Assembly: GCF_030063245.1 (NCBI RefSeq)
Contig: NZ_JASISR010000030.1
Coordinates: 1 to 45,819 of the forward strand
Direction of reading: 5' to 3'
Source of the DNA: Paenarthrobacter sp. PH39-S1
GTDB taxonomy: Bacteria > Actinomycetota > Actinomycetes > Actinomycetales > Micrococcaceae
Length of the DNA stretch: 45,819 bases
This document shows positions 8,102-22,820 of this stretch, piece after piece. Under the pieces are notes generated by a model. The model saw nothing but the letters and a program-made list of their open reading frames with translations. It had not been told where the DNA came from and did not search any database. Within the stretch, counting starts at the first letter, position 1. The number at the start of each line of letters is the position of its first letter. Made by a program: the position numbers and the translations under genes.

Positions 8102-8102
8102 C

Positions 8103-8360
8103 CGGCGAGCCCTAAGCAAGGAAGGCACCTCCCCCTCGCGGTCCATCAGGCTTCCGAAAGAACTTGACGCCCAACTCCTCGCCCGCTCCGCAGAGGAGCG
8201 GCGCAAGTCGAGCGAAATCGTGCGGGTTGCGCTGCAGGAATATCTGAGCCCCGCCTCAAAGCCATATCACGGGGCTGTAGCTGGGACAGGGGGTGTCCTC
8301 CCCGTCCCGGGGAAACAGGCTGACGTCACCAGGTTGTCGGCACTGAGCATTGCATCTTGA
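8103..8360 (+). pseudogene. Ribbon-helix-helix (CopG-type) regulator, start codon lost
   Basis: The frame encodes SRSIRLPKELDAQLLARSAE and ERRKSSEIVRVALQEYLSP: one beta strand and two helices of a classic ribbon-helix-helix DNA-binding domain, about 45 residues, followed by a 35-residue tail. No ATG, GTG or TTG occurs in frame between the transposase remnant and the domain. Upstream, the frame is open into the transposase remnant (GTG 7986, ATG 8007), so only a fusion product without a ribosome site could be made. It is probably a beheaded gene. It precedes an unknown gene and a nickel permease, so it may once have been a metal-responsive regulator or an antitoxin-like protein; that is inference. 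Confidence 0.6.
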
Positions 8361-8385
8361 ACGATGGCAGGAGCAGAGTTGCTAT

Positions 8386-9093
8386 ATGTTCCTCGATCGC
8401 AGCCGGCGTCCGTCCGATGCTACGGAGCCGCCGACACCGGATGAAATTGCCGCTGGTTTTGCCGTGCCGTTGCTGACGCTCGCCGCCCAGGACTCAGTCG
8501 AGGAAGCGAGCGCCGGCATATCATCTCAAACGCAGGATCATCAACCGGTGATGGAAGCAGCAACGCTGTCATATACGTTGTGGCGTAACCCGTCCGATCG
8601 CGACGATCCCGCCAACCTCGTGGACCTTACTGAGGAGATGCGGGCAGCACTCGACGCGGAGCCGCCGTGGCCGCTGCCGGAGTGGATCAGCCGGTGGCGT
8701 GCCAGGATGTGTTACCCGCTGCTGTGGGATGCAGTGCGCACGACTCACATCAGCGAAGTCCAGGCGCATGACGGATACACCCGGCACACTCCGGAGTTGG
8801 CGTTGGTCGAACACATCAACTACATCGTGAGAAACACGTACCGTGACGTACGCGTCCACGGCGGGTTTCCCGGCGAACTCATCGATCCGGCGTCCGAGGA
8901 CAGTATTGAGCACGGCTATCCGGTTTCCGTCGATGGTGCGGATGTCGTGGGCCTGCGGGTCGAGTCGGATCCCCACGTGCTCGGATTGGCCGCCGGCCTT
9001 GACGGTCGGCTGCTCACCGCCGTCATCGGGCGTGAGTACCTGCCCTACCTGCGGCTCGCGTTCGCCACCCGACCATCACCGGCACGGCCGTGA
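8386..9093 (+). CDS. Hypothetical protein between the RHH fragment and the nickel permease
   Basis: I do not recognise this 235-residue soluble protein. It has no signal peptide or membrane segment. It is acidic and rich in Trp and Pro near the middle (PPWPLPEWISRWRARMCYP), with a C-terminal half reading like a folded alpha/beta domain (YPVSVDGADVVGLRVESD, LLTAVIGREYLPYLRLAF). ATG 8386 has AGGAG about 12 bases upstream; a TTG at 8350 would overlap the end of the RHH frame. The 49-base gap to the NiCoT gene suggests one transcript. Codon use and length support a real gene, but function is unknown. Confidence 0.7.
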   Translation: MFLDRSRRPSDATEPPTPDEIAAGFAVPLLTLAAQDSVEEASAGISSQTQDHQPVMEAATLSYTLWRNPSDRDDPANLVDLTEEMRAALDAEPPWPLPEWISRWRARMCYPLLWDAVRTTHISEVQAHDGYTRHTPELALVEHINYIVRNTYRDVRVHGGFPGELIDPASEDSIEHGYPVSVDGADVVGLRVESDPHVLGLAAGLDGRLLTAVIGREYLPYLRLAFATRPSPARP

Positions 9094-9128
9094 ACCTCTG
9101 GCCGACGGGCCCGGGGAGACAACGCACC

Positions 9129-9146
9129 ATGAAAACGAGCAGATGA
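9129..9146 (+). other. Five-codon mini-ORF overlapping the NiCoT start
   Basis: GGGGAG at 9113-9118 is ten bases ahead of ATG 9129, which encodes Met-Lys-Thr-Ser-Arg and stops at TGA 9144-9146. That stop overlaps the permease start in ATGA. The permease ATG itself has only a weak site (GAGCAG), so ribosomes terminating on the mini-ORF could reinitiate there. The arrangement is seen; its use is inference. Confidence 0.4.
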
Positions 9147-10279
9147 GCACCCTTGAACGAGCCGCAGGGTCCCGGATCAGCCGCATCCGGAGGGCCCTGA
9201 CCCTCCGAGAGTGGGGTTCGATCGCCTCGATGGCGGGGTTCGTGGCACTCCTGCACCTGGTGGGTTGGGGGGTGCTGGCCGGCATTGTGGAACCGGTACA
9301 TCGACAGACGGGTCAGACGGGGGTTTTCGGGCTGGGGCTGGGGGTCACCGCTTATACCTTGGGCCTGCGGCATGCCTTCGACGCTGATCATATTGCCGCC
9401 ATTGACAACACCACGCGCAAGCTGATGAACGACGGGAAGAGGCCACTTTCCGTGGGGTTCTGGTTTTCCCTGGGCCATTCGAGCATCGTCTTCGGACTCT
9501 GCTTCCTGCTGGCCCTGGGCATGCAGACCTTGGCCGGTCAGGTGGACGCCGATTCCTCTACCCTGCACACGGTGCTTGGACTCATCGGGACCGGTGTCTC
9601 CGGGATCTTTCTTTACATCATCGGGATCATCAATCTGGTGATCCTGCTGGGCATCGTCAAAATCTTCCGCCGTATGCGGCAGGGCCAGTTCGACGAGCCG
9701 GCGCTGGAACACCAGCTCAACAATCGAGGCCTAATGAACCGGCTGTTCGGCGGCGTGAACCGGCTCGTCACCCGGCCCTGGCAAATGTACGTCGTCGGTC
9801 TGTTGTTCGGTCTGGGTTTCGATACGGCCACGGAAGTTTCTCTGTTGGTGCTGGCCGGCGGTGCGGCAGCGCTTTCGCTGCCCTGGTACGCCATTCTGAC
9901 CCTGCCGGTTCTCTTCGCTGCCGGAATGAGCCTCTTGGATGCGCTGGACGGGTGCTTCATGAACTTTGCCTATGGTTGGGCGTTCTCGAAACCCGTCCGC
10001 AAGATCTACTACAACCTCGTCATCACCGGGCTTTCCGTTGCCGTGGCGCTGATTATCGGGTCGATCGAGCTCATCTCCATTCTGGTCGACAGAACCGGGA
10101 TCCACTCCGGACCGCTGGCGGCTATCGGGGGGATGGATCTGAACAACGTCGGCTACGCCATCGTGGCGATTTTTGTGCTGGCCTGGATCATCGCCGTCGG
10201 CACTTGGAAGTTCGGTCGGATCGAAGATAAGTGGACCGCAGCGCTGCGGCGTCCAACCCCGCCCGACGTCGACTCCTGA
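9143..10279 (+). CDS. Nickel/cobalt permease, NiCoT (HoxN/NixA) family
   Basis: This high-affinity secondary transporter brings Ni2+ (sometimes Co2+) across the membrane. The 378-residue protein has eight predicted helices and all NiCoT signatures: GLRHAFDADHIAAIDNTTRK in helix 2, FSLGHSSIVF in helix 3, LLFGLGFDTATEV and FAAGMSLLDALDGCFM. ATG 9143 is chosen because the frame upstream overlaps the previous gene; it overlaps the stop of a five-codon mini-ORF. It lies about 155 bases before hypA and the [NiFe]-hydrogenase genes, so nickel for the hydrogenase is the obvious job. A strong hairpin follows, so it may be transcribed separately. Confidence 0.95.
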   Translation: MSTLERAAGSRISRIRRALTLREWGSIASMAGFVALLHLVGWGVLAGIVEPVHRQTGQTGVFGLGLGVTAYTLGLRHAFDADHIAAIDNTTRKLMNDGKRPLSVGFWFSLGHSSIVFGLCFLLALGMQTLAGQVDADSSTLHTVLGLIGTGVSGIFLYIIGIINLVILLGIVKIFRRMRQGQFDEPALEHQLNNRGLMNRLFGGVNRLVTRPWQMYVVGLLFGLGFDTATEVSLLVLAGGAAALSLPWYAILTLPVLFAAGMSLLDALDGCFMNFAYGWAFSKPVRKIYYNLVITGLSVAVALIIGSIELISILVDRTGIHSGPLAAIGGMDLNNVGYAIVAIFVLAWIIAVGTWKFGRIEDKWTAALRRPTPPDVDS

Positions 10280-10434: not shown

Positions 10435-10764
10435 ATGCACGAACTCTCCATTACCCAAAGCCTGGTTGACGCGGTGCTCGACTGCACCGGCGATCGCACT
10501 GTCACCGGCGTGAACCTGCGAATCGGGCGGCTCAGCGGAGTTCTGCCGGATGCCCTGCGGTTCTGCTTCCAGCTGCTGGCCGAGGGAACCCCGCTGGCCG
10601 GGGCGGATCTGCGAATCGATGAGCCAGCGGGCCGGGCCACCTGTCACACGTGCCGGCAGAGTTTCATTCTCCCGGATACGATCCCGCTGTGCACCTGTGG
10701 CAGCGCCGACGTTGAAATTACGGGCGGCCGCGAGCTGATGCTTGCTTCCGTGGAAGTGGGGTAA
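10435..10764 (+). CDS. hypA: Hydrogenase nickel-insertion protein HypA
   Basis: HypA delivers nickel with HypB to the immature hydrogenase large subunit in the cytoplasm. The 109-residue protein starts with the invariant Met-His-Glu (nickel ligand His2) and carries the structural zinc site in TCHTCRQSF and LCTCGSADVEI. ATG 10435 is chosen over an upstream in-frame ATG at 10399 because MHE must be N-terminal and because GAGGTGG lies about eight bases before it. Two bases separate it from hypB, so the pair is co-translated. It is first in the hydrogenase run. Confidence 0.95.
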   Translation: MHELSITQSLVDAVLDCTGDRTVTGVNLRIGRLSGVLPDALRFCFQLLAEGTPLAGADLRIDEPAGRATCHTCRQSFILPDTIPLCTCGSADVEITGGRELMLASVEVG

Positions 10765-10766
10765 AA

Positions 10767-11660
10767 ATGTGTGCTACCTGCGGTTGCGGCGACGACGTCG
10801 GAGTCCGGGTGTCAACCGGGGACGGCAGCGGTGCGTCCCCGGAACCGGTCCTCGATCACCAGCATCTGCACGACGGCGGCCGGCAGCAACCGCACGACCA
10901 CGCGCACGATGGTGGCCACGATCACGTGCACGAGAGTGGGCAGGCGCACAGCCATGCTCCGGTGGCCACGATCGCGCTGGAGCAAAGCCTGCTCGCCAAG
11001 AACGATCTGCTGGCGGCGCGGAACCGGGGCTGGCTGGAGGGACGCGGCATCCAGGCATTCAATGTGATGAGTTCCCCCGGAGCGGGCAAGACAACCCTGT
11101 TGGTGCGCACCATTGAAGAACTGGGAAGCAGGCTTAACATCGCCGTCATCGAAGGCGACCAGGAGACGTCGCTGGACGCTGACCGTATCCGCACCGCCGG
11201 GCGTCCGGCCGTTCAGATTAACACCGGAGCCGGCTGCCATCTGGACGCCGATATGCTCCGACGGGGGCTCGACGCGTTGAATCCGGAGCAGGGATCAACG
11301 CTCTTCATTGAAAATGTCGGAAATTTGGTCTGTCCGGCGCTTTTTGATCTCGGCGAAACAGCCAAAGTAGTAATTATTTCCGTCACGGAGGGTGATGATA
11401 AGCCGCAAAAGTATCCGCACATGTTTATGGCAGCAGATCTCGTGATTATCAATAAGTCGGATCTACTGCCTTATGTTGAATTCGACGTGGATCAATGCCT
11501 CCGCCAGGCACGGCAACTGAATCCACGCGTCGAGATGCTCTCCGTTTCCGCCACGACGGGCGTAGGCCTGGACGGTTGGTACGACTGGCTGATGAAAAAT
11601 GCTAATGCTCCGGCGGTGCGCGCGGGCGCCGCTACTCTACCGGATGGCGTCCGTGTCTGA
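10767..11660 (+). CDS. hypB: Hydrogenase nickel-incorporation GTPase HypB
   Basis: HypB is the SIMIBI GTPase that powers nickel transfer to the [NiFe] site. The 297-residue protein begins with the nickel-binding CATCGCG motif, then a histidine-rich stretch at residues 31-63 (HDHAHDGGHDHVHE) able to store nickel. The P-loop SSPGAGKTT is at residues 102-110; the metal and switch region includes TGAGCHLDADM, FIENVGNLVCPALFDLGE and the guanine-specificity motif NKSD. Length is normal for a His-rich HypB. The intergenic gap to the small subunit is 61 bases with its own AAAGGAGG site. Confidence 0.97.
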   Translation: MCATCGCGDDVGVRVSTGDGSGASPEPVLDHQHLHDGGRQQPHDHAHDGGHDHVHESGQAHSHAPVATIALEQSLLAKNDLLAARNRGWLEGRGIQAFNVMSSPGAGKTTLLVRTIEELGSRLNIAVIEGDQETSLDADRIRTAGRPAVQINTGAGCHLDADMLRRGLDALNPEQGSTLFIENVGNLVCPALFDLGETAKVVIISVTEGDDKPQKYPHMFMAADLVIINKSDLLPYVEFDVDQCLRQARQLNPRVEMLSVSATTGVGLDGWYDWLMKNANAPAVRAGAATLPDGVRV

Positions 11661-11721
11661 GGTGCAGACATACGCATAATGGGCCCGGCTCGGATGAGCA
11701 GGACTCTCAAAGGAGGCAACG

Positions 11722-12780
11722 ATGCCTACAGAAGCTTCGATTAAGGCCGAAGAAGCGCTTATACATGTTTTGTGGATCAATGCAGGGCTCAGCTGCGATG
11801 GCGACTCGGTGGCACTGACCGCGGCAACGCAGCCCAGCGTGGAGGAAATCGCTCTCGGTGCCCTGCCCGGCCTGCCGAAGATTGCCATGCACTGGCCGCT
11901 CATTGATTTCGAATGCGGCCCGCAGGAGGGCGCTGATGACTTCCTTGAGTGGTTCCGCAAGGCGGACCGAGGGGAATTGGAGCCTTTTGTCCTCGTTGTA
12001 GAGGGTTCCATTCCCAACGAGAAACTGCACGACGTGGGCGGATACTGGTCCGGATTCGGAAATGATCTGGAAACCGGACAACCCATCACGACAAGCGAGT
12101 GGCTGGACCGCCTCGCGCCGAAGGCGACTGCGATTATTGCCGCCGGTACGTGCGCTGCCTACGGCGGGATCCATGCCATGGCAGGTAACCCCACCGGCGC
12201 GATGGGCGTTCCCGATTACCTCGGTTACGACTGGAAATCCAAGGCCGGGATACCGATTGTCTGTGTTCCGGGATGCCCGATCCAGCCGGACAATCTCTCC
12301 GAAACCATCACCTATCTTCTCTATCAGGCGACCGGACAGGCACCGATGATCCCCTTGGACGACGCGCTGCGGCCGACGTGGCTATTCGGCCGGACCGTGC
12401 ACGAGGGGTGTGACCGGGCGGGGTACTACGAGCAGGGTGATTTTGCCACCGAATACGGCTCCCCGAAGTGCATTGTGAAGTTGGGCTGTTGGGGCCCGGT
12501 GGTTAAATGCAATGTTCCCAAACGCGGCTGGATGAATGGAATTGGGGGGTGTCCGAACGTCGGCGGCATCTGCATAGGGTGCACCATGCCAGGTTTCCCG
12601 GATAAGTTCATGCCGTTCATGGACGAGCCTCCTGGCGGCATTCTCTCAACCAACGCTGTGCGGCCGTACGGCGCTGCCGTCCGGACTCTGCGGCACATCA
12701 CCATGAACACCCTTGATAAGGAACCACGCTGGCGCAGGACCGGCCGCGAACTGCTTACAGGCGCCACCCGTACCTGGTAA
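11722..12780 (+). CDS. hhyS: [NiFe]-hydrogenase small subunit, group 1h-type (Huc/Hhy-like)
   Basis: This Fe-S electron-relay subunit belongs to a high-affinity, oxygen-tolerant uptake hydrogenase of the class that lets actinobacteria oxidise atmospheric H2. The 352-residue protein has no Tat signal, as in group 1h, so it is made and folded in the cytoplasm. Cluster ligands are visible: proximal C25, D28, C144 and C185, with Asp replacing the usual second Cys in LSCDGDSV; distal H227, C230, C250 and C256; medial C263, C277, C284 and C287. AAAGGAGG is eight bases before the ATG. Twenty-seven bases separate it from the large subunit. The symbol follows usage for this group. Confidence 0.93.
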   Translation: MPTEASIKAEEALIHVLWINAGLSCDGDSVALTAATQPSVEEIALGALPGLPKIAMHWPLIDFECGPQEGADDFLEWFRKADRGELEPFVLVVEGSIPNEKLHDVGGYWSGFGNDLETGQPITTSEWLDRLAPKATAIIAAGTCAAYGGIHAMAGNPTGAMGVPDYLGYDWKSKAGIPIVCVPGCPIQPDNLSETITYLLYQATGQAPMIPLDDALRPTWLFGRTVHEGCDRAGYYEQGDFATEYGSPKCIVKLGCWGPVVKCNVPKRGWMNGIGGCPNVGGICIGCTMPGFPDKFMPFMDEPPGGILSTNAVRPYGAAVRTLRHITMNTLDKEPRWRRTGRELLTGATRTW

Positions 12781-12807
12781 GAACGGCATGAGAAAGAGGC
12801 AGAGGCA

Positions 12808-14601
12808 ATGACCTCCACGATTCCATTACCCGCACAGGGCAGCACCGCAGACGACTCACTGGTGGAGATGGCATGGGACCCCATCACGCGGATCGTGGGC
12901 AGCCTTGGCATTTATACCAAAATCGATTTCAAAAATAAGGAAGTCGTGGAGTGCCACAGCACCTCATCGATCTTCCGCGGCTACTCGATCTTTATGCGCG
13001 GCAAGGATCCGCGGGACGCGCACTTCATCACCAGCCGGATCTGCGGGATCTGCGGGGACAATCACGCCACGTGCTCCTGCTACGCGCAAAACATGGCCTA
13101 TGGGGTAAAGCCCCCACATCTTGGCGAATGGATCGTCAATTTGGGTGAAGCCGCGGAGTACATGTTCGATCATAATATCTTCCAGGAGAACCTGGTCGGC
13201 GTGGACTACTGCGAAAAAATGGTCTCCGAAACCAACCCGGGTGTGCTGGCCAAGGCGGAAAACACCCGCGCCCCGCATGAAGGCGAACACGGCTATCGGA
13301 CCATCGCGGACATCATGCGCTCGCTGAATCCATTTACCGGCGAGTTTTACCGCGAGGCGCTGCAGGTCAGCAGGCTCACCCGGGAAATGTTCTGCCTCAT
13401 GGAGGGTCGCCACGTACACCCCTCCACGCTCTATCCCGGCGGAGTCGGCACCGTCGCCACGATCCAGCTGATGACGGACTACATCACCCGGTTGATGCGC
13501 TATGTGGAATTCATGAAGAAGGTCGTACCCATGCACGACGACCTCTTCAATTTCTTCTACGACGCGCTTCCCGGCTATGAGCAGGTCGGGCTGCGGCGGA
13601 CGCTGCTGGGGTGTTGGGGCTCCTTCCAGGACCCGGAATTCTGCAACTTCGCCTACAAGGACATGACAGACTGGGGCCGGAAGATGTTCGTCACCCCGGG
13701 CGTCGTCGTCGACGGAAAACTGGTCACCACGGATCTCGTGCGGATCAACCTCGGCATCCGGATCATGCTTGGCTCCTCCTACTATGAGGACTGGAATGAC
13801 CAGGAAATGTTCGTCAAGAATGATCCGCTGGGCAACCCGGTGGACCGGCGTCATCCGTGGAACCAGCACACCAACCCGCTCCCGCAAAAGCGGGATCTGG
13901 AGGGCAAGTACAGCTGGGTGATGTCGCCGCGCTGGTTCGACGGGCAAGAGAATCTGGCGCTGGATACCGGTGGTGGCCCGCTCGCACGGCTCTGGTCAAC
14001 GGCGCTGGCGGGGCTGGTCGATATCGGCTACATCAAATCCACCGGACACAGCGTGGAGATCAACCTGCCGAAAACGGCGCTCAAGGGACCCGTGTCCCTC
14101 GAATGGAAGATCCCGCAATGGAGCAACACACTCGAGCGCAACCGGGCCCGCACCTATTTCCAGGCGTATGCCGCGGCAACTGCCCTGCATTTCGCAGAAA
14201 AGGCGCTCGAGGAAATCCGTGCCGGGCGGACCAAGACGTGGGAATCGTTTGAGGTCCCGGACGAGGCTGTCAGCTGCGGCTTCACCGAAGCGGTCCGCGG
14301 CGTTCTTTCGCACCACATGGTGATCCGCGACGGAAAGATCGCCAATTACCATCCCTATCCGCCGACACCGTGGAACGCCAGTCCGCGTGATGCCTCCGGA
14401 ACCCCGGGACCCTATGAAGACGCGGTGCAGGGTCAGCCCATCTTTGAAGAAAACGATCGGGAGAATTTCAAGGGGATCGACATCATGCGCACGGTCCGTA
14501 GCTTCGACCCTTGCCTGCCCTGCGGCGTGCACATGTATTTGGGCGAGGGTAAATCCTTGGATAGGCTGCACTCCCCCACGCAGTCCCTCACCGGGGAATG
14601 A
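12808..14601 (+). CDS. hhyL: [NiFe]-hydrogenase large (catalytic) subunit, group 1h-type
   Basis: The subunit binds the Ni-Fe(CN)2CO centre and oxidises H2. In the 597-residue protein the L1 motif RICGICGDNH (C79, C82) and L2 motif DPCLPCGVH (C569, C572) supply the four nickel cysteines. The 22 residues after H575 (MYLGEGKSLD...) form the tail cut off by the endopeptidase encoded downstream. Sequence around L1 and L2 matches the actinobacterial group 1h pattern. The ATG has AAGAGGCAGAGGC upstream. The stop is followed after six bases by the NifU/Rieske-like gene, implying coupled production of an electron-transfer partner. Confidence 0.96.
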   Translation: MTSTIPLPAQGSTADDSLVEMAWDPITRIVGSLGIYTKIDFKNKEVVECHSTSSIFRGYSIFMRGKDPRDAHFITSRICGICGDNHATCSCYAQNMAYGVKPPHLGEWIVNLGEAAEYMFDHNIFQENLVGVDYCEKMVSETNPGVLAKAENTRAPHEGEHGYRTIADIMRSLNPFTGEFYREALQVSRLTREMFCLMEGRHVHPSTLYPGGVGTVATIQLMTDYITRLMRYVEFMKKVVPMHDDLFNFFYDALPGYEQVGLRRTLLGCWGSFQDPEFCNFAYKDMTDWGRKMFVTPGVVVDGKLVTTDLVRINLGIRIMLGSSYYEDWNDQEMFVKNDPLGNPVDRRHPWNQHTNPLPQKRDLEGKYSWVMSPRWFDGQENLALDTGGGPLARLWSTALAGLVDIGYIKSTGHSVEINLPKTALKGPVSLEWKIPQWSNTLERNRARTYFQAYAAATALHFAEKALEEIRAGRTKTWESFEVPDEAVSCGFTEAVRGVLSHHMVIRDGKIANYHPYPPTPWNASPRDASGTPGPYEDAVQGQPIFEENDRENFKGIDIMRTVRSFDPCLPCGVHMYLGEGKSLDRLHSPTQSLTGE

Positions 14602-14607
14602 CTTGCC

Positions 14608-15642
14608 ATGAACGCGCAGAACGGTTTGCTGGAGCCAAGTGAAGCCGTAGCTCCTGCGGCCGCCGCACCGTGGGCCGCGGCGCCGGTGCCTGCGGCCAGG
14701 TCCGGCGGGGACCAGCTGCGGAACTCTGGCGAACGGATCGGAACGCTGTTGGACGCCCTGTCCTCCGGTGGTTCGGTGGCCCGCGAGCGCGCCGAGGAAC
14801 TGGTCCGGCAAGTTACGGATCTCTACGGCGCCGGGCTGGAACGCGTGCTGGACGTCATTTCGGCCCGGGGAGGCGAAACGGACGGCACACTGGAGGCCCT
14901 GATCAAAGACGAGCTGATCTCAGGTCTGCTGCTGGTCCACGGTCTGCATCCACAGGACTTGCCAACCAGAGTCGCCGCGGCGCTGGATAGTGTCCGGCCG
15001 TACCTTGGATCCCATGGGGGCGACGTGGAGCTGCTGGGCATCAGCGCGGACGGGGTGGTGAGCCTCCGCCTGCTGGGGAGCTGCCACGGTTGCCCGTCCT
15101 CGTCCGTGACACTCAAGCTTGCTGTCGAGGATGCCATTGAAACGGCGGCCCCCGAAGTGACATCGATCCAGGTGGCGGAGGAGGAGTCCGCCCAGTCCCC
15201 TGCGGTCATTCCGGTGAATGCGCTGCGGATGCGCCTGGATCAACAGGCAGAAAAGGATCTACAGGCCGGACGGTCCGTTCCGGGACCAGCAGGTGGTTCA
15301 TGGGAGGCGGCGGCGGAGCTTGCCGGACTGCAGGCCGGCGAGGTGGCCGGCTTCCTGATCGGTGGAGCCCAGGTGCTGGCCTGCCGGATCGGCGAGGATA
15401 TTTTCGCTTACTTGGATTACTGCCCACGGTGCACGAAGTCCATGGCCGGGGCGTCGTTGCAGCGCGCCCTTGCAGCCCCCACCGGCGGCGGGCTGCTGCG
15501 CTGCCCCACCTGCCGGGCCCATTTTGATGTCCGGATGGCCGGTGCCTGTCTGGAAGACAAGGCAATGCATCTGGATCCCCTTCCGCTGCTCGTTCGCGGC
15601 GGCGTTACCTCCGTGGCCATCCCTGCCAGGACGGCTTCGTGA
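14608..15642 (+). CDS. NifU-like/Rieske-like iron-sulfur protein of the hydrogenase cluster
   Basis: This 344-residue protein combines a Pro/Ala-rich N-terminus, a helical part (residues 40-120), a NifU C-terminal-like domain with the CxxC pair in GSCHGCPSSS (C159, C162), and a Rieske-ferredoxin-like domain at about 235-340. In the last domain the ligands read CPRC (272, 275) and CPTC (299, 302), four cysteines instead of the Cys/His pairs of a true Rieske centre. Such Fe-S proteins accompany group 1h hydrogenases (HucE/HhyE-type in mycobacteria) and are proposed to pass electrons towards the quinone pool. The role here is by context. Its TGA overlaps the next GTG start. Confidence 0.8.
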   Translation: MNAQNGLLEPSEAVAPAAAAPWAAAPVPAARSGGDQLRNSGERIGTLLDALSSGGSVARERAEELVRQVTDLYGAGLERVLDVISARGGETDGTLEALIKDELISGLLLVHGLHPQDLPTRVAAALDSVRPYLGSHGGDVELLGISADGVVSLRLLGSCHGCPSSSVTLKLAVEDAIETAAPEVTSIQVAEEESAQSPAVIPVNALRMRLDQQAEKDLQAGRSVPGPAGGSWEAAAELAGLQAGEVAGFLIGGAQVLACRIGEDIFAYLDYCPRCTKSMAGASLQRALAAPTGGGLLRCPTCRAHFDVRMAGACLEDKAMHLDPLPLLVRGGVTSVAIPARTAS

Positions 15643-16337
15643 ACACCGGAACAGGCAGCATCGCAGCTGCAGGGCCGGTTGCCATGCTCCGGCGCATCGC
15701 TGTCAGTCGTCCAGCCGCCACCGCTGGCGAGCGCTGTGAGATGTGCGCCGAGCCTCTTGCGGAAAAACACCAGCACGTGGTGGACGTGGACAGCCGCGCA
15801 CTGATGTGCACTTGCCGCCCGTGTTACCTGCTCTTCACCGATGCGACGGCGCACCTGCGTTACCGTTCGGTGCCCGAGCGTTACCTTTCCTTCCCCGGGT
15901 TTGAACTGGGAAGCGGCGGGTGGGATGAACTTGAGATTCCCGTTGGCTTGGCATTCTTCTTCACCAATTCCCGGATGGGGCGGACCGTTGCATTTTATCC
16001 TGGCCCCGCCGGTGCCACCGAGTCAGAGTTGCCACTGGGGGCCTGGGACACGGTGCTGGCCAGCAACCCTGCCGTTGCCGTTGCCGTGCCGGACACGGAG
16101 GCTTTGCTGATCCGTGCTCCCGGACCGGAGCGCCTGAAGGCCGATTGCCATCTCGTGCCGATTGATGCCTGCTATGAACTGGTCGGCCAACTGCGCAAGG
16201 TCTGGCGGGGCTTCGACGGCGGCCAAGACGCGCGTGCCCAGCTCACCGCGTTCTTTGAGCGTGTGAACAACCGCAGCAGACCTTATCCCGGCACTTTCTC
16301 CGGATCGGTCCACGCCGGAAGCGGGCCCCGGCCATGA
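15639..16337 (+). CDS. DUF5947 family protein, hydrogenase-associated
   Basis: The 232-residue soluble protein has a zinc- or Fe-S-binding-like N-terminal knuckle: ERCEMCAEPL (C33, C36) and LMCTCRPCYLLF (C57, C59, C62). An alpha/beta body with ELEIPVGLAFFFTNS and AFYPGPAGATES follows. It resembles DUF5947, a family I know only from group 1h hydrogenase clusters, with no established biochemical role. The GTG start overlaps the previous stop and its own stop overlaps the next ATG, so it is part of a strictly coupled run. A maturation or assembly function is inference. Confidence 0.8.
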   Translation: MNTGTGSIAAAGPVAMLRRIAVSRPAATAGERCEMCAEPLAEKHQHVVDVDSRALMCTCRPCYLLFTDATAHLRYRSVPERYLSFPGFELGSGGWDELEIPVGLAFFFTNSRMGRTVAFYPGPAGATESELPLGAWDTVLASNPAVAVAVPDTEALLIRAPGPERLKADCHLVPIDACYELVGQLRKVWRGFDGGQDARAQLTAFFERVNNRSRPYPGTFSGSVHAGSGPRP

Positions 16338-16975
16338 CGGACCTTGGCTTCAGTGTCCTGGACATTATCCCGGAACGCTATGCCGCCTCCCCCCAGTTGA
16401 CCGCCCGGCTGTTCCTGACCGAATCCACCGGGGAGGCAATCCATGCTATAGCGCTGCGCTGCCAGGTGCGGATTCAGCCGCAGCGCAGGGGCTACACCCC
16501 GGAGGAGGAAGCCGGTCTGCTGGATCTTTTCGGAACCCGCGTGCGCTGGCCTTCGACGCTGAAGCCCTTCCTTTGGATGCAGTGCAGCACCATGGTGCAG
16601 GGTTTCACCGGACAGGCCGAGGTGGATCTGGCACTTCCATGTACGTTCGACTTCGAGGTCGCGGCGGCGAAGTACCTGCATGCGCTCCGCGAGCGCACCA
16701 TCCCCGTGGAACTGCTGTTCTCGGGAACGATCTTCACCAAGGGAGTCACGGGGTTCGGCGTCGAACAGGTCCCATGGGACCGCGAGGCGTCGTTCCAACT
16801 GCCGGTCTCCACCTGGACTGAACTGATGGACCAACATTTTCCCAACAGCGGCTGGATCCGGCTTGACCGGGATGTACTTAAAGCGCTGGCGCATTACAAA
16901 TCAAGCCTCGGGCTTACCACGTGGGAAGCCGCTGTTGAAGGGCTATTGGCGGCGGCCGGTGATTCGGTCCGATGA
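16334..16975 (+). CDS. DUF6084 family protein, hydrogenase-associated
   Basis: This is a 213-residue protein of the DUF6084 type. It contains LRCQVRIQPQRRGYTPEEE, TRVRWPSTLKPFLWMQ, LALPCTFDFEVAAAKYLHAL and PVELLFSGTIF, suggesting a beta-sandwich-rich fold. No signal peptide, membrane segment or catalytic motif is seen. It overlaps its neighbours by four bases on both sides (ATGA junctions), so stoichiometric production with DUF5947 and the 503-residue protein is likely. Function is unknown; a structural or assembly role for the hydrogenase is inferred from constant co-occurrence. Confidence 0.78.
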   Translation: MTDLGFSVLDIIPERYAASPQLTARLFLTESTGEAIHAIALRCQVRIQPQRRGYTPEEEAGLLDLFGTRVRWPSTLKPFLWMQCSTMVQGFTGQAEVDLALPCTFDFEVAAAKYLHALRERTIPVELLFSGTIFTKGVTGFGVEQVPWDREASFQLPVSTWTELMDQHFPNSGWIRLDRDVLKALAHYKSSLGLTTWEAAVEGLLAAAGDSVR

Positions 16976-18483
16976 TGAATCCAAGTCTTAGCCTGGCCAG
17001 GGCCATCGCGGACGCAGTCCTTTACGAGGGGTACCTCCTCTATCCCTACCGTGCCTCCTCACAGAAAAACCAGTCACGCTGGCAGTTCGGCATCCTGGGC
17101 CCTCCCGGCGCGGCCGCCGCCGGGGCAGGCGAAGAATCAACCATGTTCACGGATGCCCTGCTGCGTGCCGGCCGGCACGCCCGGTTGGAGGTGCATCTGC
17201 GCTTCCTGCAGTTGCAGTCCCGGACGTGCGAAAAGTTCGACGACGGGACGTTCACGCCGGTGTCGGAGCTCAGCATCGGTGCGGCCCGCTGGCTGACGTG
17301 GGACGAGGCGACCGAACAGGAGATGATGCTGGGTCCGTTCGCGCTCGATCAACTGGCCGGCGGATTGACTGTGCCGGTTCAGATTTCCGGTGCCGAAGAA
17401 GTGGAGACGCTCCAGGATGCGGCCGGTGCGGTGGCAGGACGACTGGTACGCCGACGGCTGCCGCTTCAGTGCGAGGTCGGGCTCGGCACCACCGCAGTAG
17501 GCGGTACCGCACTCGGCGGTACCGGCGGCGGTGAAGGAACCTGCGGCGGAGAATCCTCAACCGCTGGCTTGCTGCGTCTTCGGGTGAGTGCTGAAAACAC
17601 GGCAGGGTGCCCGACAGTAAAAAAGCCGGAAGCAATCGCTCTGTCCTTCATCGGAACGCACCTGCTGCTGAGCCTGCACGATGCGGACTTCATTTCGCTG
17701 CTGGACCCGCCGGAGGACGCGCGGGCCGCGGCGGCGTCCTGCTCGCAGCACCGCGGCTGGCCTGTCCTGGCCGGCCCCGAGGGGCAAAGCGACGTCCTGC
17801 TGATCTCCCCCATCATTCTTTATGACCATCCCGCCGTGGCTCCGGAAAGCTCGGTGGCGCTCTACGATTCAACCGAAATCGACGAGATCCTTACGCTGCG
17901 CGTACTGACGCTCACCGAGGATGAAAAGGCCGAAGCCAGGGCAACGGATCCGCGGGCTGCGGCCATCATCGACCGCTGCGAGGCGATGACCGATGTTCAA
18001 CTGCAGGCTCTGCACGGCATCCTGCGCAGTCCCCATGCCGAAGAAGAGCTTGGTGCCGGTCCCGGAAGCGGCGCCGGACTCCTTGGCGCCCCCCGGGATG
18101 GTACTGACCTTGCCGCTGCCTTCCCGGTGCTGACCGACGATCCTCTGGCGGGCCCCCCGTGGTGGGACCCGGCGGCCGATTCCAGCGTCAGACCGGAAGC
18201 CGACGCCGTCGTCATTAACGGGGTGGCCGTCACCAGGGGCAGTCGCGTTGTGGTCCGGCCCAACCGCCGGGCCGACGCGCAGGACCTGTTCTCTGCCGGA
18301 CAGACGGCGCGCGTGACCGGCGTTCATTTTGACGTCGACGGCGGCACGCATGTCGCCGTCGTGATTGAAGCGGATCCGGCCGCGGAACTGCAGGAGTGGT
18401 ACGGAAGATACCTCTATTTCTCGCCGGACGAGCTGGAGCCTCTCGGTCCGGTACCCGCGATGAATGACGGAAAGGGAACCTGA
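16972..18483 (+). CDS. Uncharacterised 503-residue hydrogenase-cluster protein
   Basis: I recognise this protein only by position in group 1h clusters. Residues 1-150 contain LEVHLRFLQLQSRTCEKF and a segment ending EMMLGPFALDQL. A middle domain has FIGTHLLLSLHDADFISLLDPP and QSDVLLISPIILYDHPAVAPES. The C-terminus has a small beta-barrel-like part (VAVTRGSRVVVRPNRRAD, QEWYGRYLYFSPDELEP). A Gly/Thr-rich insert at residues 170-200 is produced by a 15-bp tandem duplication (17491-17532). No transmembrane segment is seen. It overlaps DUF6084 by four bases and is followed after one base by the 39-codon gene. The function is unknown. Confidence 0.8.
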   Translation: MMNPSLSLARAIADAVLYEGYLLYPYRASSQKNQSRWQFGILGPPGAAAAGAGEESTMFTDALLRAGRHARLEVHLRFLQLQSRTCEKFDDGTFTPVSELSIGAARWLTWDEATEQEMMLGPFALDQLAGGLTVPVQISGAEEVETLQDAAGAVAGRLVRRRLPLQCEVGLGTTAVGGTALGGTGGGEGTCGGESSTAGLLRLRVSAENTAGCPTVKKPEAIALSFIGTHLLLSLHDADFISLLDPPEDARAAAASCSQHRGWPVLAGPEGQSDVLLISPIILYDHPAVAPESSVALYDSTEIDEILTLRVLTLTEDEKAEARATDPRAAAIIDRCEAMTDVQLQALHGILRSPHAEEELGAGPGSGAGLLGAPRDGTDLAAAFPVLTDDPLAGPPWWDPAADSSVRPEADAVVINGVAVTRGSRVVVRPNRRADAQDLFSAGQTARVTGVHFDVDGGTHVAVVIEADPAAELQEWYGRYLYFSPDELEPLGPVPAMNDGKGT

Positions 18484-18484
18484 C

Positions 18485-18604
18485 ATGAGAAGCCTTGGAA
18501 AAATGTCCGCTGTGTTGTTGGCACTGACAGCCCTGACAGGAATCGCGGTGATGGTGCGTTCGATCCCGGACATTGTCCGCTACGTGAAAATCAGCCGGAT
18601 GTGA
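18485..18604 (+). CDS. 39-residue single-span membrane peptide (DUF6893-like), hydrogenase-associated
   Basis: The peptide starts MRSLGKMSAVLLALTAL and continues with a hydrophobic stretch to residue 23, then VRSIPDIVRYVKISRM. This is one transmembrane helix followed by a basic cytoplasmic tail. Its ATG lies one base after the stop of the 503-residue gene and its TGA overlaps the GTG of the endopeptidase, so it is embedded in the coupled run. The preceding GGAAAGGGAACC serves as ribosome site. Small proteins of this form (DUF6893) occur at this place in related clusters. A membrane anchor or docking role for the otherwise soluble hydrogenase is inference. Confidence 0.8.
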   Translation: MRSLGKMSAVLLALTALTGIAVMVRSIPDIVRYVKISRM

Positions 18605-19311
18605 GCGGCGTCGATGCCGTCGGCGCGGGAGTCAGCAGCGCCGGGCCGGCGGGTGACCGTGTGATGGCGGGTGACTCTGTACCCGTGCCCGCAGGTGACG
18701 GTGCGATTGCCCCTGCCTGCATTCTCGTGGCCGGAGTAGGCAACATGTTCCAGCGTGATGACGGGTTCGGCCCGGAGGTTGTGCGCCGGATGGGCGCAGA
18801 TACCGCCATGGCGAGTCCGGGCGTCCGCGCGGTGGACTACGGCATCCGCGGAATGCATCTGGCCTATGACCTGTTGGATGGCGTGGACGCCCTGATCCTG
18901 GTCGATGCCGTCCCGCCGCTGACAGGCAACAGCGGAAAGGGAACAGGGGGCTCCCGCCGGGTGCCGGCGAAGCCCGGAGCCATCCGCGTTCTGCAGGTCC
19001 GGCCCGAGGATCTTCACGGCGATTACAGCACGGATCATGGCCGCAGCGGGCCACCGGCCTTAGACCCGCATGGCATGGACCCGGCGGCCGTGCTGGGCAG
19101 GATGAAATCCCTGGGCGGCGACTTCCCCCTGACGTTCGTCGTGGGATGCGTGCCCGGTGACCTGGCTGAAGGAATCGGCTTATCCGAATCGGTGGAAGCC
19201 GCCATACCCGACGCGCTGGGTGAGATTCGGCAGCTCATCAATGAAATCACTGAACGTATTCCAGCGGTAAGGAGAAACGGATCATGTGCTTGGGAATCCC
19301 TGGCCAGGTGA
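18601..19311 (+). CDS. Hydrogenase maturation endopeptidase (HupD/HyaD family)
   Basis: This protease removes the C-terminal tail of the large subunit after nickel is inserted. The 236-residue protein contains VAGVGNMFQRDDGFGPEVV, where the second Asp stands for the nickel-sensing Glu of HyaD; DALILVDAVPP with the second metal ligand Asp; and DPHGMDPAAVLG with the His ligand. About 35 extra N-terminal residues are low-complexity and a loop near residues 105-125 is longer than usual. GTG 18601 overlaps the previous stop; GTG 18661 is an alternative. The end overlaps hypC by 28 bases. Confidence 0.88.
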   Translation: MSGVDAVGAGVSSAGPAGDRVMAGDSVPVPAGDGAIAPACILVAGVGNMFQRDDGFGPEVVRRMGADTAMASPGVRAVDYGIRGMHLAYDLLDGVDALILVDAVPPLTGNSGKGTGGSRRVPAKPGAIRVLQVRPEDLHGDYSTDHGRSGPPALDPHGMDPAAVLGRMKSLGGDFPLTFVVGCVPGDLAEGIGLSESVEAAIPDALGEIRQLINEITERIPAVRRNGSCAWESLAR

Positions 19312-19541
19312 TTGAACTGCTGGCCGGCTACGGCAACCAACTGGCGCTGGTGGACGTTGCCGGTGTACGGCGAAAGATCAACATTGGTCTGCTGGACGAG
19401 GGGCCCCTGGAAGCGGGGACGTGGGTGATTATCCACATGGGCTTCGCCTTGGAACGTGTAGATGCGGCCGGAGCCGAGCAGGCGATGGGCGGCCTGAAGC
19501 TCATGGGTTCCGGCGTGGATGAAGACGCGACCGCTGGCTAG
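19284..19541 (+). CDS. hypC: Hydrogenase assembly chaperone HypC
   Basis: HypC carries the Fe(CN)2CO group with HypD and docks it into the large subunit. The 85-residue protein begins MCLGIPGQVIEL with the essential Cys2, and contains ALVDVAGVRRKINIGLLDE and GTWVIIHMGFALERVD, the OB-fold of this family. AAGGAG lies within the end of the protease gene ten bases before the ATG. It is the last gene of the run. Its partners hypD, hypE and hypF are not in the window, so they must be encoded elsewhere. Confidence 0.95.
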   Translation: MCLGIPGQVIELLAGYGNQLALVDVAGVRRKINIGLLDEGPLEAGTWVIIHMGFALERVDAAGAEQAMGGLKLMGSGVDEDATAG

Positions 19542-19565
19542 AACCGGGCGCTCCGCGATGGGGCG

Positions 19566-20339
19566 TTAGCGTTCCAGCGCTACGGCAGTGCCGCGGTGTT
19601 CGACGCCGACGTTGGCTATCTTCAAGTGCCTGGTTGTAAAGTGCTGCAGCCGCTGCAGCTGCAGGGGTGTGAGACGGTCGCACACCCAATCCCAATGCAG
19701 CGATACCGCGTCACCCACGGCAAGATCGGCCACAAAGCCTGCCCCCGCGACGGCGTGCTTGGCCGTCTCCACGATTGCCGGGCCAAGACTTAGCACCGCT
19801 CCGTCCCAGACCAGGGGCTGCGAGCGCACCACAGCCTCATCCGCGGTCACGGCCAGCACTTCACCCCAGCGGATGCGGCACTGGTCCAGCACATTCAGCG
19901 CCGTCGGGTATCTGCGGTCGTCGCGGAGCAGCCCGAGCCACGGATATATCTCGAAGACATGGAAGCTGTGGTGCGGAACCCCGCCGGCGAGTACTCCCTC
20001 GACCAGATGCGGGAACTGCATTCCCGTCCGCGCGCGGAAGCGGTCCTCCATCGAGTTGCCGATATTCGTCACGCCGACGGTGTCCAGCAGTCTGTTGCCC
20101 ACCCAATAGGCCTCCACCACCCGGTAATCGAGCGGATCGGCGATTTTGGTGGCCCCGGCAATCAGCTCAAGATACGGCCATGCGCCGGCGAAGCCTTTTG
20201 CCAGCTCCTTAAGTCCGCGGTCCGTCACCCCGGATTGACCGTAATGCAGCAGTGCGTCGCTGTCTTCCGGGCCGCAGCTGCCCCGCGAATTGGGCGGATA
20301 GGCGTAACGGACAAACAACTGGGCACCGTTAATAACCAT
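19566..20339 (-). CDS. DUF6390 family protein facing the hydrogenase genes
   Basis: This 257-residue protein resembles DUF6390. It contains FVRYAYPPNSRGSCGPEDSD, YGQSGVTDRGLKELAKGF, AGAWPYLELIAGATKIADPL, HHSFHVFEIYPWLGLLRDD and VSLHWDWVCDRLTPLQLQRL. Conserved Cys, His and Trp residues suggest metal or cofactor handling, but no function is known to me. The ATG at 20339 has GAGG seven bases upstream; the frame is open further. It converges with hypC with a 24-base gap and is the only hydrogenase-associated gene here on the minus strand. Family members cluster with group 1h hydrogenases, so a maturation role is the best guess. Confidence 0.78.
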   Translation of the reverse strand: MVINGAQLFVRYAYPPNSRGSCGPEDSDALLHYGQSGVTDRGLKELAKGFAGAWPYLELIAGATKIADPLDYRVVEAYWVGNRLLDTVGVTNIGNSMEDRFRARTGMQFPHLVEGVLAGGVPHHSFHVFEIYPWLGLLRDDRRYPTALNVLDQCRIRWGEVLAVTADEAVVRSQPLVWDGAVLSLGPAIVETAKHAVAGAGFVADLAVGDAVSLHWDWVCDRLTPLQLQRLQHFTTRHLKIANVGVEHRGTAVALER

Positions 20340-20605: not shown

Positions 20606-21754
20606 GTGAGCAGTCCTGACATGAGCCGTCGCTCGGCTCTGTCCACCATTTTGGTCGCCGGCGGTGCGGCGGCCCTCGCCTCCTGCGGGCAACCAAAAAC
20701 GGAACCTGCCGACACGCCGCGCGCCGCCGTCAGCGCCCAGCAGCCGATCGTTGTAACTGACCAGCGCGGTAAGACGCTGACCTTCGACAAACCTGTCACC
20801 CTGGTCGTGACGATTCCCATGCCCGCCGCCTCGCTGCTCGTCGCCGTCGACCAAAGCGCAGCCCATCTGGCCGCCATGCACAACGCCTCCTGGCTCGCCA
20901 TGCGCGACGGCATTATGGGCAAGCTGTTCCCCGACGCCCTGAAGATCCCACACGACGTCGCCGCCAATGACTTCACCCCCAACGTGGAGAGCATCCGGGC
21001 GCTGAATCCGGACGTCGTGGTGCAGTGGAGCGATTCGCAGTTCACGGAACCGCTCGAAAACGCGGGGCTGAAGGTCCTGGGTCTGACCAATACGGGCAAG
21101 CAGGAGGACGTGGATGCCTGGACTGCGATGTTTGCCGCGATGCTGGGCAAACCGGACCGCGCCGCGCAAATCAAGGCCCGCAGCGACCGGACGCGGACGA
21201 ATATCATGGCGCTGACCGCCAGCCGTTCCCGAAAGGGACCGAGCATCCTCTATTTCAATCGGTTTACCGGCGGCCTCAAGGTGGCGGGAAATGCCAGCTA
21301 CAACGACTTCTATATCAAGCTGGTGGGCGGAACGAATCCCGCGTCCGGCGACCAGGGTGCCAAGGGTTCCGGCATGGTCGGGGTGGACGTAGAACAGGTC
21401 CTGGCGTGGGACCCGGAGGTCCTCCTGCTGGGCAATTTCGACGACGCCTTGCCCGCTGACATCACCTCGGACCCGGTTTGGAAGGACGTCTCAGCGGTGC
21501 GCGATCGACGCGTCTACAAAGTCCCCCTGGGCGGTTACCGCTGGGACCCTCCCGGGCAGGAATCGCCGCTGATGTGGCGCTGGCTGGCGGACATCGCTTT
21601 CCCGGACCAGACGGTCTCTCCACTGCGCAGCACGATCGTGGACGACTACAAGTTCCTCTACGGCCGTGAGCCAAGCTCTGCGGACATCGACACTATGCTG
21701 TGGACGTCGGTGAACGGTCAGTCAGCCAACTACCGGCAGTTCAATGGCGCATGA
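20606..21754 (+). CDS. Metal-chelate ABC importer, substrate-binding lipoprotein (FepB/BtuF fold)
   Basis: The 382-residue lipoprotein has a twin-arginine-like N-terminus (MSRRSALS), a hydrophobic stretch and lipobox LASC (Cys about 27), then a periplasmic-binding domain of the FecB/BtuF class: VVTDQRGKTLTFDKPVTLV, NVESIRALNPDVVVQWSD, GKQEDVDAWTAMFAAMLGK and VDVEQVLAWDPEVLLLGNFD. GTG 20606 follows AAGGAGG by eight bases. These systems bind iron-siderophores, haem, cobalamin or nickel chelates. Substrate is not decidable, but the position next to the hydrogenase genes makes a nickel complex or iron worth considering. It overlaps the permease gene by 11 bases. Confidence 0.9.
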   Translation: MSSPDMSRRSALSTILVAGGAAALASCGQPKTEPADTPRAAVSAQQPIVVTDQRGKTLTFDKPVTLVVTIPMPAASLLVAVDQSAAHLAAMHNASWLAMRDGIMGKLFPDALKIPHDVAANDFTPNVESIRALNPDVVVQWSDSQFTEPLENAGLKVLGLTNTGKQEDVDAWTAMFAAMLGKPDRAAQIKARSDRTRTNIMALTASRSRKGPSILYFNRFTGGLKVAGNASYNDFYIKLVGGTNPASGDQGAKGSGMVGVDVEQVLAWDPEVLLLGNFDDALPADITSDPVWKDVSAVRDRRVYKVPLGGYRWDPPGQESPLMWRWLADIAFPDQTVSPLRSTIVDDYKFLYGREPSSADIDTMLWTSVNGQSANYRQFNGA

Positions 21755-22820
21755 GGTCCGGGAGCACCGGCGGGTGGGGCCAGGGAACCCCCGACGTTTC
21801 CGCTCTCCGAAAGCCTTCGGCCCGGTGACGGGCACCGCCGTCCTGTTGCTCGGCTTTGCTTTACTGGCCTTGGCCATGGGCCGTTACACCGTCCCGTTCT
21901 GGCACGTGGTGCAGGCACTCCTCTCCCATGTGCTGCCGTTGGACAGCTCCGCGACCAGTTCCGAGGCAAGTGTGGTGCTGCTGGTACGCCTCCCCCGGGT
22001 CATGCTGGCGCTGCTGGTCGGCGGCGGTCTCGCAATCGGCGGCGCGGCGCTGCAGGCCATCTTCCGCAATCCCTTGGTGAGCCCGGAAATCATCGGGGTA
22101 TCGGCTGGCGCTTCCTTCGGCGGAGCCATCGCGCTGCTCGTCGGCGCCGGCGCCATCATGCTGGTCAGCGGCTCTTTTCTCTTCGGCCTGGTGGCGCTGG
22201 GACTGTTGTTCCTGATCACTTCCGGACGGGGCGGGACGCCGATGCTGCTGATCGTCCTCGGCGGCGTGGTGGTGGGATCATTTTTTTCCGCACTTGTCTC
22301 GCTCATAACCTACCTCGCCGACCCGTTCAGCACGCTGCCCGCGATCGTCTTCTGGCTGCTGGGCAGCGTTGCTACCGCCAGCTATGCCAAGGTGCTGATC
22401 GCCGTCGTACCAATCCTTGCCGGCACCTCGGCGCTGCTCGCCCTTCGGTGGCGAATTAACGTACTCTCCCTGGGCGATGAGGACGCTGCCGCACTGGGGC
22501 TTCGGCCACGCACGCTGAGGTGGGTGGTGCTGATCTCGGTGGCCCTGATCGTGGCCGGCGCGGTGGCCGTCAGCGGCGTCATCAGCTGGGTGGGGCTGGT
22601 GATTCCACATCTGGCCAGAATGTGGGTGGGGCCGGATCACAGGGTGCTGCTGCCCGTCTCCTTTCTGCTCGGCGGCTCCTACATCGTCGCCGTTGATACC
22701 GTCGCCCGCACCATCACCGGCGGCGAAATTCCGCTGGGCGTGCTGACGGCGCTGATCGGCGCCCCCGTCTTCTTCGTGCTGCTGCGGCACAACCGGGACA
22801 GGATCTGGGACAGTGCTTGA
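21744..22820 (+). CDS. Metal-chelate ABC importer permease (FecCD/BtuC family)
   Basis: This is a 358-residue membrane protein with about ten helices. Family landmarks include LLVRLPRVMLALLVGGGLAI, GAALQAIFRNPLVSPEIIGV, GASFGGAIALLVG, the ATPase-docking segment LSLGDEDAAALGL and GVISWVGLVIPHLARMWVG. A single permease gene implies a homodimer. The ATG overlaps the lipoprotein gene and the end overlaps the ATPase gene by eight bases, so the three subunits are translationally coupled. Confidence 0.94.
   Translation: MAHEVREHRRVGPGNPRRFRSPKAFGPVTGTAVLLLGFALLALAMGRYTVPFWHVVQALLSHVLPLDSSATSSEASVVLLVRLPRVMLALLVGGGLAIGGAALQAIFRNPLVSPEIIGVSAGASFGGAIALLVGAGAIMLVSGSFLFGLVALGLLFLITSGRGGTPMLLIVLGGVVVGSFFSALVSLITYLADPFSTLPAIVFWLLGSVATASYAKVLIAVVPILAGTSALLALRWRINVLSLGDEDAAALGLRPRTLRWVVLISVALIVAGAVAVSGVISWVGLVIPHLARMWVGPDHRVLLPVSFLLGGSYIVAVDTVARTITGGEIPLGVLTALIGAPVFFVLLRHNRDRIWDSA

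Follow-up and report, generated by a model that had tools for sequence, protein, structure and literature searches.

How does a hydrogenase without an anchor of its own come to lie at the membrane, and what do the uncharacterised proteins encoded beside it contribute? This question is raised by positions 10435-20339 of contig NZ_JASISR010000030.1 of Paenarthrobacter sp. PH39-S1 (the window, by which we mean the whole stretch of 45,819 nucleotides that was analyzed), which hold a group 1h (Hhy) [NiFe]-hydrogenase module and five companion families: DUF5947, DUF6084, a 503-residue protein, a 39-residue peptide and DUF6390. Aerobic microbes with such enzymes are described, in the part of PMC11018855 considered, as the main sink of atmospheric H2. 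The corresponding part of PMC7174314 states that the subunits of group 1h enzymes are devoid of transmembrane helices and anchors although the enzyme associates with the membrane, that this association seems essential for high affinity, and that the partner is unknown. Since the enzyme is membrane-associated but anchorless, we propose the 39-residue peptide, a member of the DUF6893 family, as its anchor.

Our proposal as a whole, to which we give slightly better than even prospects, has three parts: the peptide as anchor, a group-1h-specific complex around the catalytic subunits, and DUF6390 as a HypC-like chaperone. The module as such is already known; what is new is the near-universal peptide, the likeness of DUF6390 to HypC, the division of the five companions into two classes and an unexplained lack of HypD, HypE and HypF.

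Identity of the Hydrogenase

Among solved structures, the large subunit, HhyL, matches HofG of Cupriavidus necator (5aa5) with 1082.6 bits, the next match in the PDB scoring 170.8 bits. Its translation contains both group 1h motifs, RICGICGDNH and DPCLPCGVH (as defined in the part of PMC5364354 considered), and RICGICGDNH and DPC.PC were found in 16/16 loci checked. The ratio of nonsynonymous to synonymous polymorphism (pN/pS) of hhyL, 0.09 in 11 Arthrobacter-type loci, points to strong purifying selection. In the small subunit, HhyS, no transmembrane helix was seen by hydropathy (maximal 19-residue value 1.25), and no Tat motif or signal was seen in the translation, judged by eye.

A Conserved Single-Helix Peptide

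The peptide (MRSLGKMSAVLLALTALTGIAVMVRSIPDIVRYVKISRM) ends in RYVKISRM and matches Pfam DUF6893 (PF21833) with an expectation value (E) of 3.7e-9 and 36.9 bits (cut-off 24.6). To follow it, 112 loci with a group-1h-type hhyL were collected, 100 of which hold both the 503-residue protein gene and the protease gene; this set of 100 contains at least one duplicate (L020/L105). Duplicates L001, L002 and L089-L100 were excluded from the locus surveys; L105 was kept in the motif scan and excluded from the counts of peptide constraint, overlaps and hydropathy, and DUF6390-hypC distance. L032 and L033 come from the same genome.

A same-strand open reading frame (ORF) combining the strict C-terminal motif with a hydrophobic stretch was present in 91 of the 100 loci. 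A hidden Markov model (HMM) added the peptides of L010, L109 and the window, whose own peptide fails the strict motif by one position. Inspection added the peptide of Methylocystis (L004) and longer variants in L006 and L117, which belong to a diverged Streptomyces lineage. Locus L113 is truncated at a contig boundary, and G152, the genome it comes from, shows a DUF6893 match beside a protease fragment on another contig. Variants counted, the peptide is thus present in 98/100 loci. Applied to every locus (51,319 ORFs), the same motif scan returned 104 matches, of which one lies on the opposite strand from hhyL. As located by the HMM, the peptide gene precedes the protease gene in 82 loci and follows it in 17, and L112 has it on either side; the order with the peptide first also occurs in some Streptomyces. 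The annotated plasmid tables for L003, L004, L005, L007 and L008, which are incomplete, list no gene at the peptide.

The peptides are mostly 31-40 residues long, with one helix and a basic C-terminus, typically PDxxRYxxxRxM. Residues R-8, Y-7 and M-1 do not vary among the 105 peptides gathered, and 99 of these have R-3. In 20 close pairs, pN/pS is 0.13 in the last 13 codons versus 0.26 overall; the C-terminus is the most strongly constrained part of the peptide.

By the positive-inside rule, a basic flank of a membrane helix tends to face the cytoplasm. The peptide would thus sit in the cytoplasmic membrane by its one helix with the conserved C-terminus in the cytoplasm, where this end may dock the anchorless pair of catalytic subunits, HhySL, beside the quinone pool. 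We propose it as the simplest anchor candidate in the genomes examined. The original prediction that companions may dock the enzyme to the membrane fits the peptide, which would be the docking element. Conserved and apparently overlooked, it bears on the question of membrane attachment in group 1h enzymes.

Several observations weigh against the anchor proposal. The foremost is Cupriavidus necator, where the peptide gene is present and the group 1h enzyme is reported, in the parts of PMC4377017 and PMC7174314 considered, to be cytoplasmic and of low affinity. The latter source also describes two other membrane proteins in the operon of Methylacidiphilum fumariolicum SolV. Loci L119 and L120 are without a recognisable peptide, and the cluster of G182 (L104) lacks the peptide, the protease and half of the 503-residue protein. 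The invariance of the C-terminal residues stems partly from the selection of matches, the HMM having been trained on these peptides. The window's peptide itself deviates at R-3 (it ends in SRM), and in 11 Arthrobacter-type loci the peptide is under moderate constraint (pN/pS 0.49). DUF6893-like peptides were also seen in L142, L143 and on the minus strand of L111, with no hydrogenase gene seen nearby.

Two simpler schemes were discarded. The peptide is not restricted to membrane-bound group 1h enzymes and absent from C. necator, since the HMM found it there. Nor does a helix of HhyS replace it in lineages without the peptide, the most hydrophobic stretch of HhyS being internal.

Four Companions Are Co-Inherited with Group 1h

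The distribution of the companions was surveyed in 276 Actinomycetota genomes, drawn alike and searched with every query. Scores of full-length HhyL matches were bimodal, with values of at least about 1011 bits taken as group 1h and those of about 480-580 or less as other types. The 27 group-1h genomes comprise 23 with full-length matches, three with partial HhyL matches of matching density (G028, G087 and G184), and G270, whose partial match was seen at a looser limit.

DUF5947 was found in 25/27 group-1h genomes versus 1/249 others, DUF6084 in 24/27 versus 2/249, and the 503-residue family in 25/27 versus 2/249. DUF6893 was found in 18/27 versus 7/249 at E 0.001, with a search model that overlooks weaker members recognised later by inspection. 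DUF6390 behaved differently, being present in 9/27 group-1h genomes versus 8/249 others, one of these (G150) with a fragment. None of DUF5947, DUF6084, the 503-residue protein and the peptide was found in 14 loci of other [NiFe] types (L127-L140).

The genomes with stray companions and no group-1h HhyL (G189 and G216) have their matches at contig ends. In G184, hhyL stops inside the contig and HypE-like sequence, recognised by eye, comes next, as in a broken or misjoined cluster; at 8029-9000 of this locus (L124), hhyL spans model positions 12-323 and is followed by an apparent hypE start (again by eye). The draft genome G042 has a repeat-filled stretch where DUF5947 is expected, and its contig ends inside DUF6084. 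G128 and G171 miss DUF6084 only; they belong to a diverged Streptomyces-like lineage in which the 503-residue protein gene lies upstream of hhyS, an arrangement shared by the plasmid locus L006. L006, L117 and L118 represent this lineage without DUF6084; the first two have a longer variant of the peptide after DUF5947. As for DUF6893 in the seven other genomes, the matches of G189 and G216 lie at contig ends, those of G269 and G195 adjoin hyp or protease genes, those of G214 and G262 fall within long ORFs, and that of G150 belongs to a relic cluster. This decayed hhy cluster (L146, 8257-17330) retains hypA, hypB, and fragments of hhyS and of the 503-residue protein gene, and has no hhyL; its peptide and protease were matched at full length, one hypC is broken and another is full-length, and DUF6390 is a fragment.

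We therefore conclude that four companions, DUF5947, DUF6084, the 503-residue protein and the DUF6893 peptide, are inherited together with group 1h hydrogenases in the sampled Actinomycetota, and that DUF6390 is not group-1h-specific. DUF6390 is set apart from the other four because it also accompanies other [NiFe] types and its distribution within group 1h is patchy. The original prediction had treated the five as one set and called for a survey of the families across group 1h clusters; run here in Actinomycetota, that survey leaves four of them as group 1h markers and removes DUF6390.

Layout of the Locus and Coupling of Its Genes

The features of the locus are as follows.

10435..10764, plus strand: hypA, nickel insertion; ATG start at 10435; Pfam HypA, E 4e-28
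10767..11660, plus strand: hypB, nickel GTPase; Pfam cobW/HypB, E 1.9e-26
11722..12780, plus strand: hhyS, group 1h small subunit; Pfam NiFe_hyd_SSU_C
12808..14601, plus strand: hhyL, group 1h large subunit with C-terminal tail; both group 1h motifs
14608..15642, plus strand: hhyE, NifU domain and C-terminal domain with two CxxC; Pfam NifU, E 5.8e-22
15639..16337, plus strand: DUF5947, PHG067 homologue; Pfam, E 2.6e-72
16334..16975, plus strand: DUF6084, PHG068 homologue; Pfam, E 2.2e-92
16972..18483, plus strand: 503-residue protein, PHG069 homologue
18485..18604, plus strand: 39-residue single-helix membrane peptide, Pfam DUF6893 (36.9 bits), proposed anchor
18601..19311, plus strand: hydrogenase maturation protease of HycI/HupD type; GTG start; Pfam
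19284..19541, plus strand: hypC; Pfam HupF_HypC, E 4.5e-21
19566..20339, minus strand: DUF6390, with a putative HypC-like C-terminal domain; Pfam, E 1.7e-89

As can be seen, the window ORFs from hypA to hypC form one series that DUF6390 faces. Four-base overlaps join hhyE to DUF5947, DUF5947 to DUF6084, DUF6084 to the 503-residue protein gene, and the peptide gene to the protease gene; a 1-base gap separates the 503-residue protein and peptide genes, and the protease and hypC genes overlap by 28 bases. The joints, and the position of DUF6390 on the minus strand (20339-19566), agree with the original prediction, which had omitted HhyE and the maturation protease as members of the same gene chain. 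A four-base overlap recurs at hhyE/DUF5947 in 78/103 loci, at DUF5947/DUF6084 in 80/99 and at DUF6084/503-residue protein in 92/99, counts that are biased upward, as the script picked the start codon closest to a 4-base overlap. Since the same overlaps recur across most loci, they are not due to chance. The further claim that such tight coupling means production in a fixed ratio to the enzyme is not supported: the maturation protease, an assembly enzyme, has the same 4-base overlap, and the overlaps therefore do not show fixed stoichiometry. A NicT-type nickel transporter gene lies directly upstream of hypA (window 8843-10279).

The overlaps shared with the protease could also mean that the whole set of companions, peptide and all, serves the maturation or assembly of HhySL and that something else makes the membrane contact, an alternative that we consider rather unlikely. 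In its favour, H2 oxidation in Mycobacterium smegmatis is reported to depend on HhyE and HucE, being lowered in single mutants and abolished in the double mutant, and the authors find a maturation role also plausible; DUF6390, moreover, resembles HypC. However, the maturation factors of a cytoplasmic enzyme would not usually include a conserved single-helix protein, and the other proteins of the cluster are mostly without an obvious helix, with median maximal hydropathy of 1.16-1.42 and 1.48-1.99 in single loci by this crude measure.

DUF5947, DUF6084, HhyE and the 503-Residue Protein

We propose that HhyE, DUF5947, DUF6084 and the 503-residue protein may surround HhySL as a complex for electron transfer or assembly that is specific to group 1h. 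In an alignment of 19 DUF5947 sequences, C33, C36, H44, H46, C57, C59 and C62 are invariant; with these five cysteines and two histidines, DUF5947 is likely a metal protein. HhyE matches Rieske_2 with E 2.4e-4, under the Pfam cut-off, and its C-terminal CxxC domain is weakly similar at the profile level (34%) to the zinc-ribbon part of HypA. The 503-residue protein, used as a single sequence, had no match in Pfam, NCBIfam or the PDB. Profiles of this protein, DUF6084 and DUF5947 gave weak, unrelated matches in the PDB, with E of 0.066 or worse, and when compared by hhalign with HypA-F, HhyS, HhyL and the protease they gave none above about 1%. In six genomes that belong to a single family (G087, G098, G119, G152, G216 and G270), the 503-residue protein family is matched by two adjoining ORFs of ~340 and ~95 residues.

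These proteins are not new to the literature. The part of PMC4377017 considered lists four ORFs without known function, PHG066-069, alongside the C. necator enzyme; this place in C. necator holds NifU, DUF5947, DUF6084 and the 503-residue protein homologue. M. smegmatis MSMEG_2717 is a homologue of PHG067, which is called, at second hand and in the passage considered, a proposed electron acceptor in C. necator. In methanotrophs, four coding sequences of unknown function lie beside hhyL (PMC12319191, in part), and the conserved hypothetical genes of such an operon were named hhaABC (PMC6776052, likewise in part). Among open-access full texts searched under these family names only, DUF5947, DUF6390 and DUF6893 were found in none, and DUF6084 appeared in one, on Streptomyces goldiniensis. 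The companions had been called uncharacterised, which holds for their function; PHG066-069 and MSMEG_2717 are nevertheless in print as ORFs and as a candidate acceptor. An active group 1h enzyme in an organism lacking all five families had been named as evidence against a role for them. SolV goes part of the way: its group 1h enzyme is active, and it does not encode hypothetical proteins described for the Pyrinomonas operon, the families being unnamed in the part of PMC7174314 considered.

A proposed acceptor, the invariant cysteines and histidines of DUF5947, and the description, in the portion of the source considered, of Huc with a membrane-reaching subunit and a tube able to hold menaquinone suggest another arrangement, in which the companions are an electron path through putative metal sites of HhyE and DUF5947 and the peptide shapes a quinone site and is not an anchor. 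We regard it as improbable: the peptide is too short for a HucM-like tube, and HhyE is without its C-terminal domain in several lineages. The peptide as anchor stays our preferred reading.

The C-Terminal Half of DUF6390 Resembles HypC

In HypC, the cysteine at position 2 and a conserved histidine are functional residues. We propose that DUF6390 may be a maturation chaperone whose C-terminal domain is HypC-like, C154 and H215 standing for HypC Cys2 and His, as remote homology suggests. Both are invariant in an alignment of 22 DUF6390 sequences. When the DUF6390 profile was compared with the PDB, two HypC structures were retrieved at E of about 0.7, neither being the top match. With hhalign and a HypC alignment of 68 sequences, the whole protein gave 73% and 70% (both directions) and the C-terminal half 86%; smaller alignments gave 51%. 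Sixty column-shuffled HypC alignments, compared with whole DUF6390 at default settings, reached at most 1.53%, with a score of 17.7 versus 34. Profiles of HypA, B, D, E and F, HhyL, HhyS and the protease stayed below 1%, and the N-terminal 150 residues had no match among these Hyp, subunit and protease profiles. A lax end-to-end realignment of the half covers HypC 1-81 and pairs C154 with Cys2 and H215 with the histidine of GDxVxxH.

The extent of the match speaks against this assignment. The default local alignment spans 31-33 columns around GDxVxxH, and it stretches to the cysteine only in the lax realignment or in global mode (probability 37%). Pfam HupF_HypC has no match in DUF6390 at E 0.1, only the DUF6390 model being reported.

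DUF6390 lies within 400 nucleotides of hypC in 22/66 copies (L165 excluded from this count). Locus L153 has it in an operon, which we take to be group-3b-like, with a large subunit, an NAD-binding protein and 4Fe-4S proteins, and in L154 it stands with a hydrogenase with a NifU-Rieske protein. All ten Arthrobacter loci carry closely related DUF6390 (435-447 bits), and in 11 Arthrobacter-type loci its pN/pS is 0.18 versus 0.24 for hypC. A homologue is encoded on the Sulfobacillus acidophilus plasmid CP003180.1 (76186-76977), which also has hypD. As a plain replacement for HypD, HypE and HypF, DUF6390 is ruled out, for it occurs in genomes and loci that have them. Read as HypC-like, DUF6390, a domain common to several hydrogenase types, acquires a suggested function.

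HypD, HypE and HypF Were Not Found in Two Genomes

As a rule, HypD, HypE and HypF are needed for every [NiFe] centre; their absence here, if it holds, would break that rule. HypD was searched in 31 genomes (25 group-1h and six of the window's order without group 1h) and was present in 22/25 group-1h genomes; it was not found in the window's own genome (G000, 99.4% complete, 135 contigs), in G008 (100% complete in 20 contigs, from the same family) and in the draft genome G042. The searches for HypF and HypE covered 14 group-1h genomes and two controls without group 1h, 16 in all. G000 and G008 gave background only, with scores up to 33 bits (HypF) and 27.7 bits (HypE), the two controls reaching at most 34.5 and 31.1 bits. 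In the other 12 group-1h genomes, HypE was above the cut-off in all and HypF in ten; in G205 a split HypF stays under the cut-off, and G042 yielded HypF fragments scoring no more than 50 bits. The flanks of all ten Arthrobacter loci, including L020, inferred to be that of G008, contain none of hypDEF, which is weak evidence, as the flanks of Rhodococcus loci L019, L024, L026 and L030 also lack them. The 16 loci counted as 'minus' for hypDEF in the neighbour comparison were selected for that property.

Either hypDEF lie on replicons missing from the two assemblies, or maturation differs here. That the genes are merely on an unassembled replicon and maturation is normal is a serious possibility, though short of even: plasmids fall outside the completeness estimates, the G000 assembly has 135 contigs, and hypD was found on plasmids in 122 records (30 of the 122 listed). 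Against it, three genes are absent in both family members searched, one of them with 20 contigs and 100% completeness, and from the flanks of the ten Arthrobacter loci. Only tentatively do we suggest that in an Arthrobacter-like branch [NiFe] enzymes are matured without HypD, HypE and HypF, by HypC, DUF6390 and further partners that would make or import the iron centre with cyanide and carbonyl ligands otherwise, or with different iron ligands.

A BtuCDF/FecCD-type ABC importer (binding protein, permease and ATPase) is encoded beside DUF6390 (window 20606-23622) and was matched in the ten Arthrobacter loci and L082; L042 and L085 have a different, SBP/BPD importer. The importer was rejected as a common substitute for HypDEF: there are two unrelated types, none was seen in the L087 stretch, and a metal importer suffices as explanation.

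Comparison with Known Systems

One of the closest counterparts is the actinobacterial-type hydrogenase HofKG with PHG066-070 of C. necator H16, where, as in the window, the large subunit is followed by NifU, DUF5947, DUF6084, a 476-residue protein and the protease, and HhyL identity is 77%. It differs in a short HhyE (192 residues), in a peptide that follows the protease with no gene listed for it, in hypF, hypC and hypD downstream, and in DUF6390, which had no match when its plasmid was searched. The Hhy system of M. smegmatis (hhyS, hhyL, HhyE and MSMEG_2717), as described in the part of the literature considered, is alike in an HhyE with NifU and two CxxC and in a PHG067-type neighbour; unlike the window, most related mycobacterial loci with sufficient flank carry hypF, hypD and hypE, and their DUF6390 copies are more diverged.

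HucM of the group 2a enzyme Huc, in the account considered, is a non-catalytic subunit linking a cytoplasmic hydrogenase to the membrane. The peptide, mostly 31-40 residues long and with a single helix, resembles it in the proposed way of working only. The larger ORFs of the set chosen from 10435-20339 are all otherwise assigned, a statement that covers a hucM-like subunit by assignment and not by profile, no HucM profile having been run.

DUF6390, which we presume to be comparable with HoxL-type chaperones as well, differs from HypC in having no N-terminal Met-Cys, its cysteine being internal, at 154, where Cys2 of HypC is terminal, and in its extra N-terminal 150 residues. It is like HypC in its C-terminal half, which matches at the profile level, the cysteine and histidine coinciding in the end-to-end alignment.

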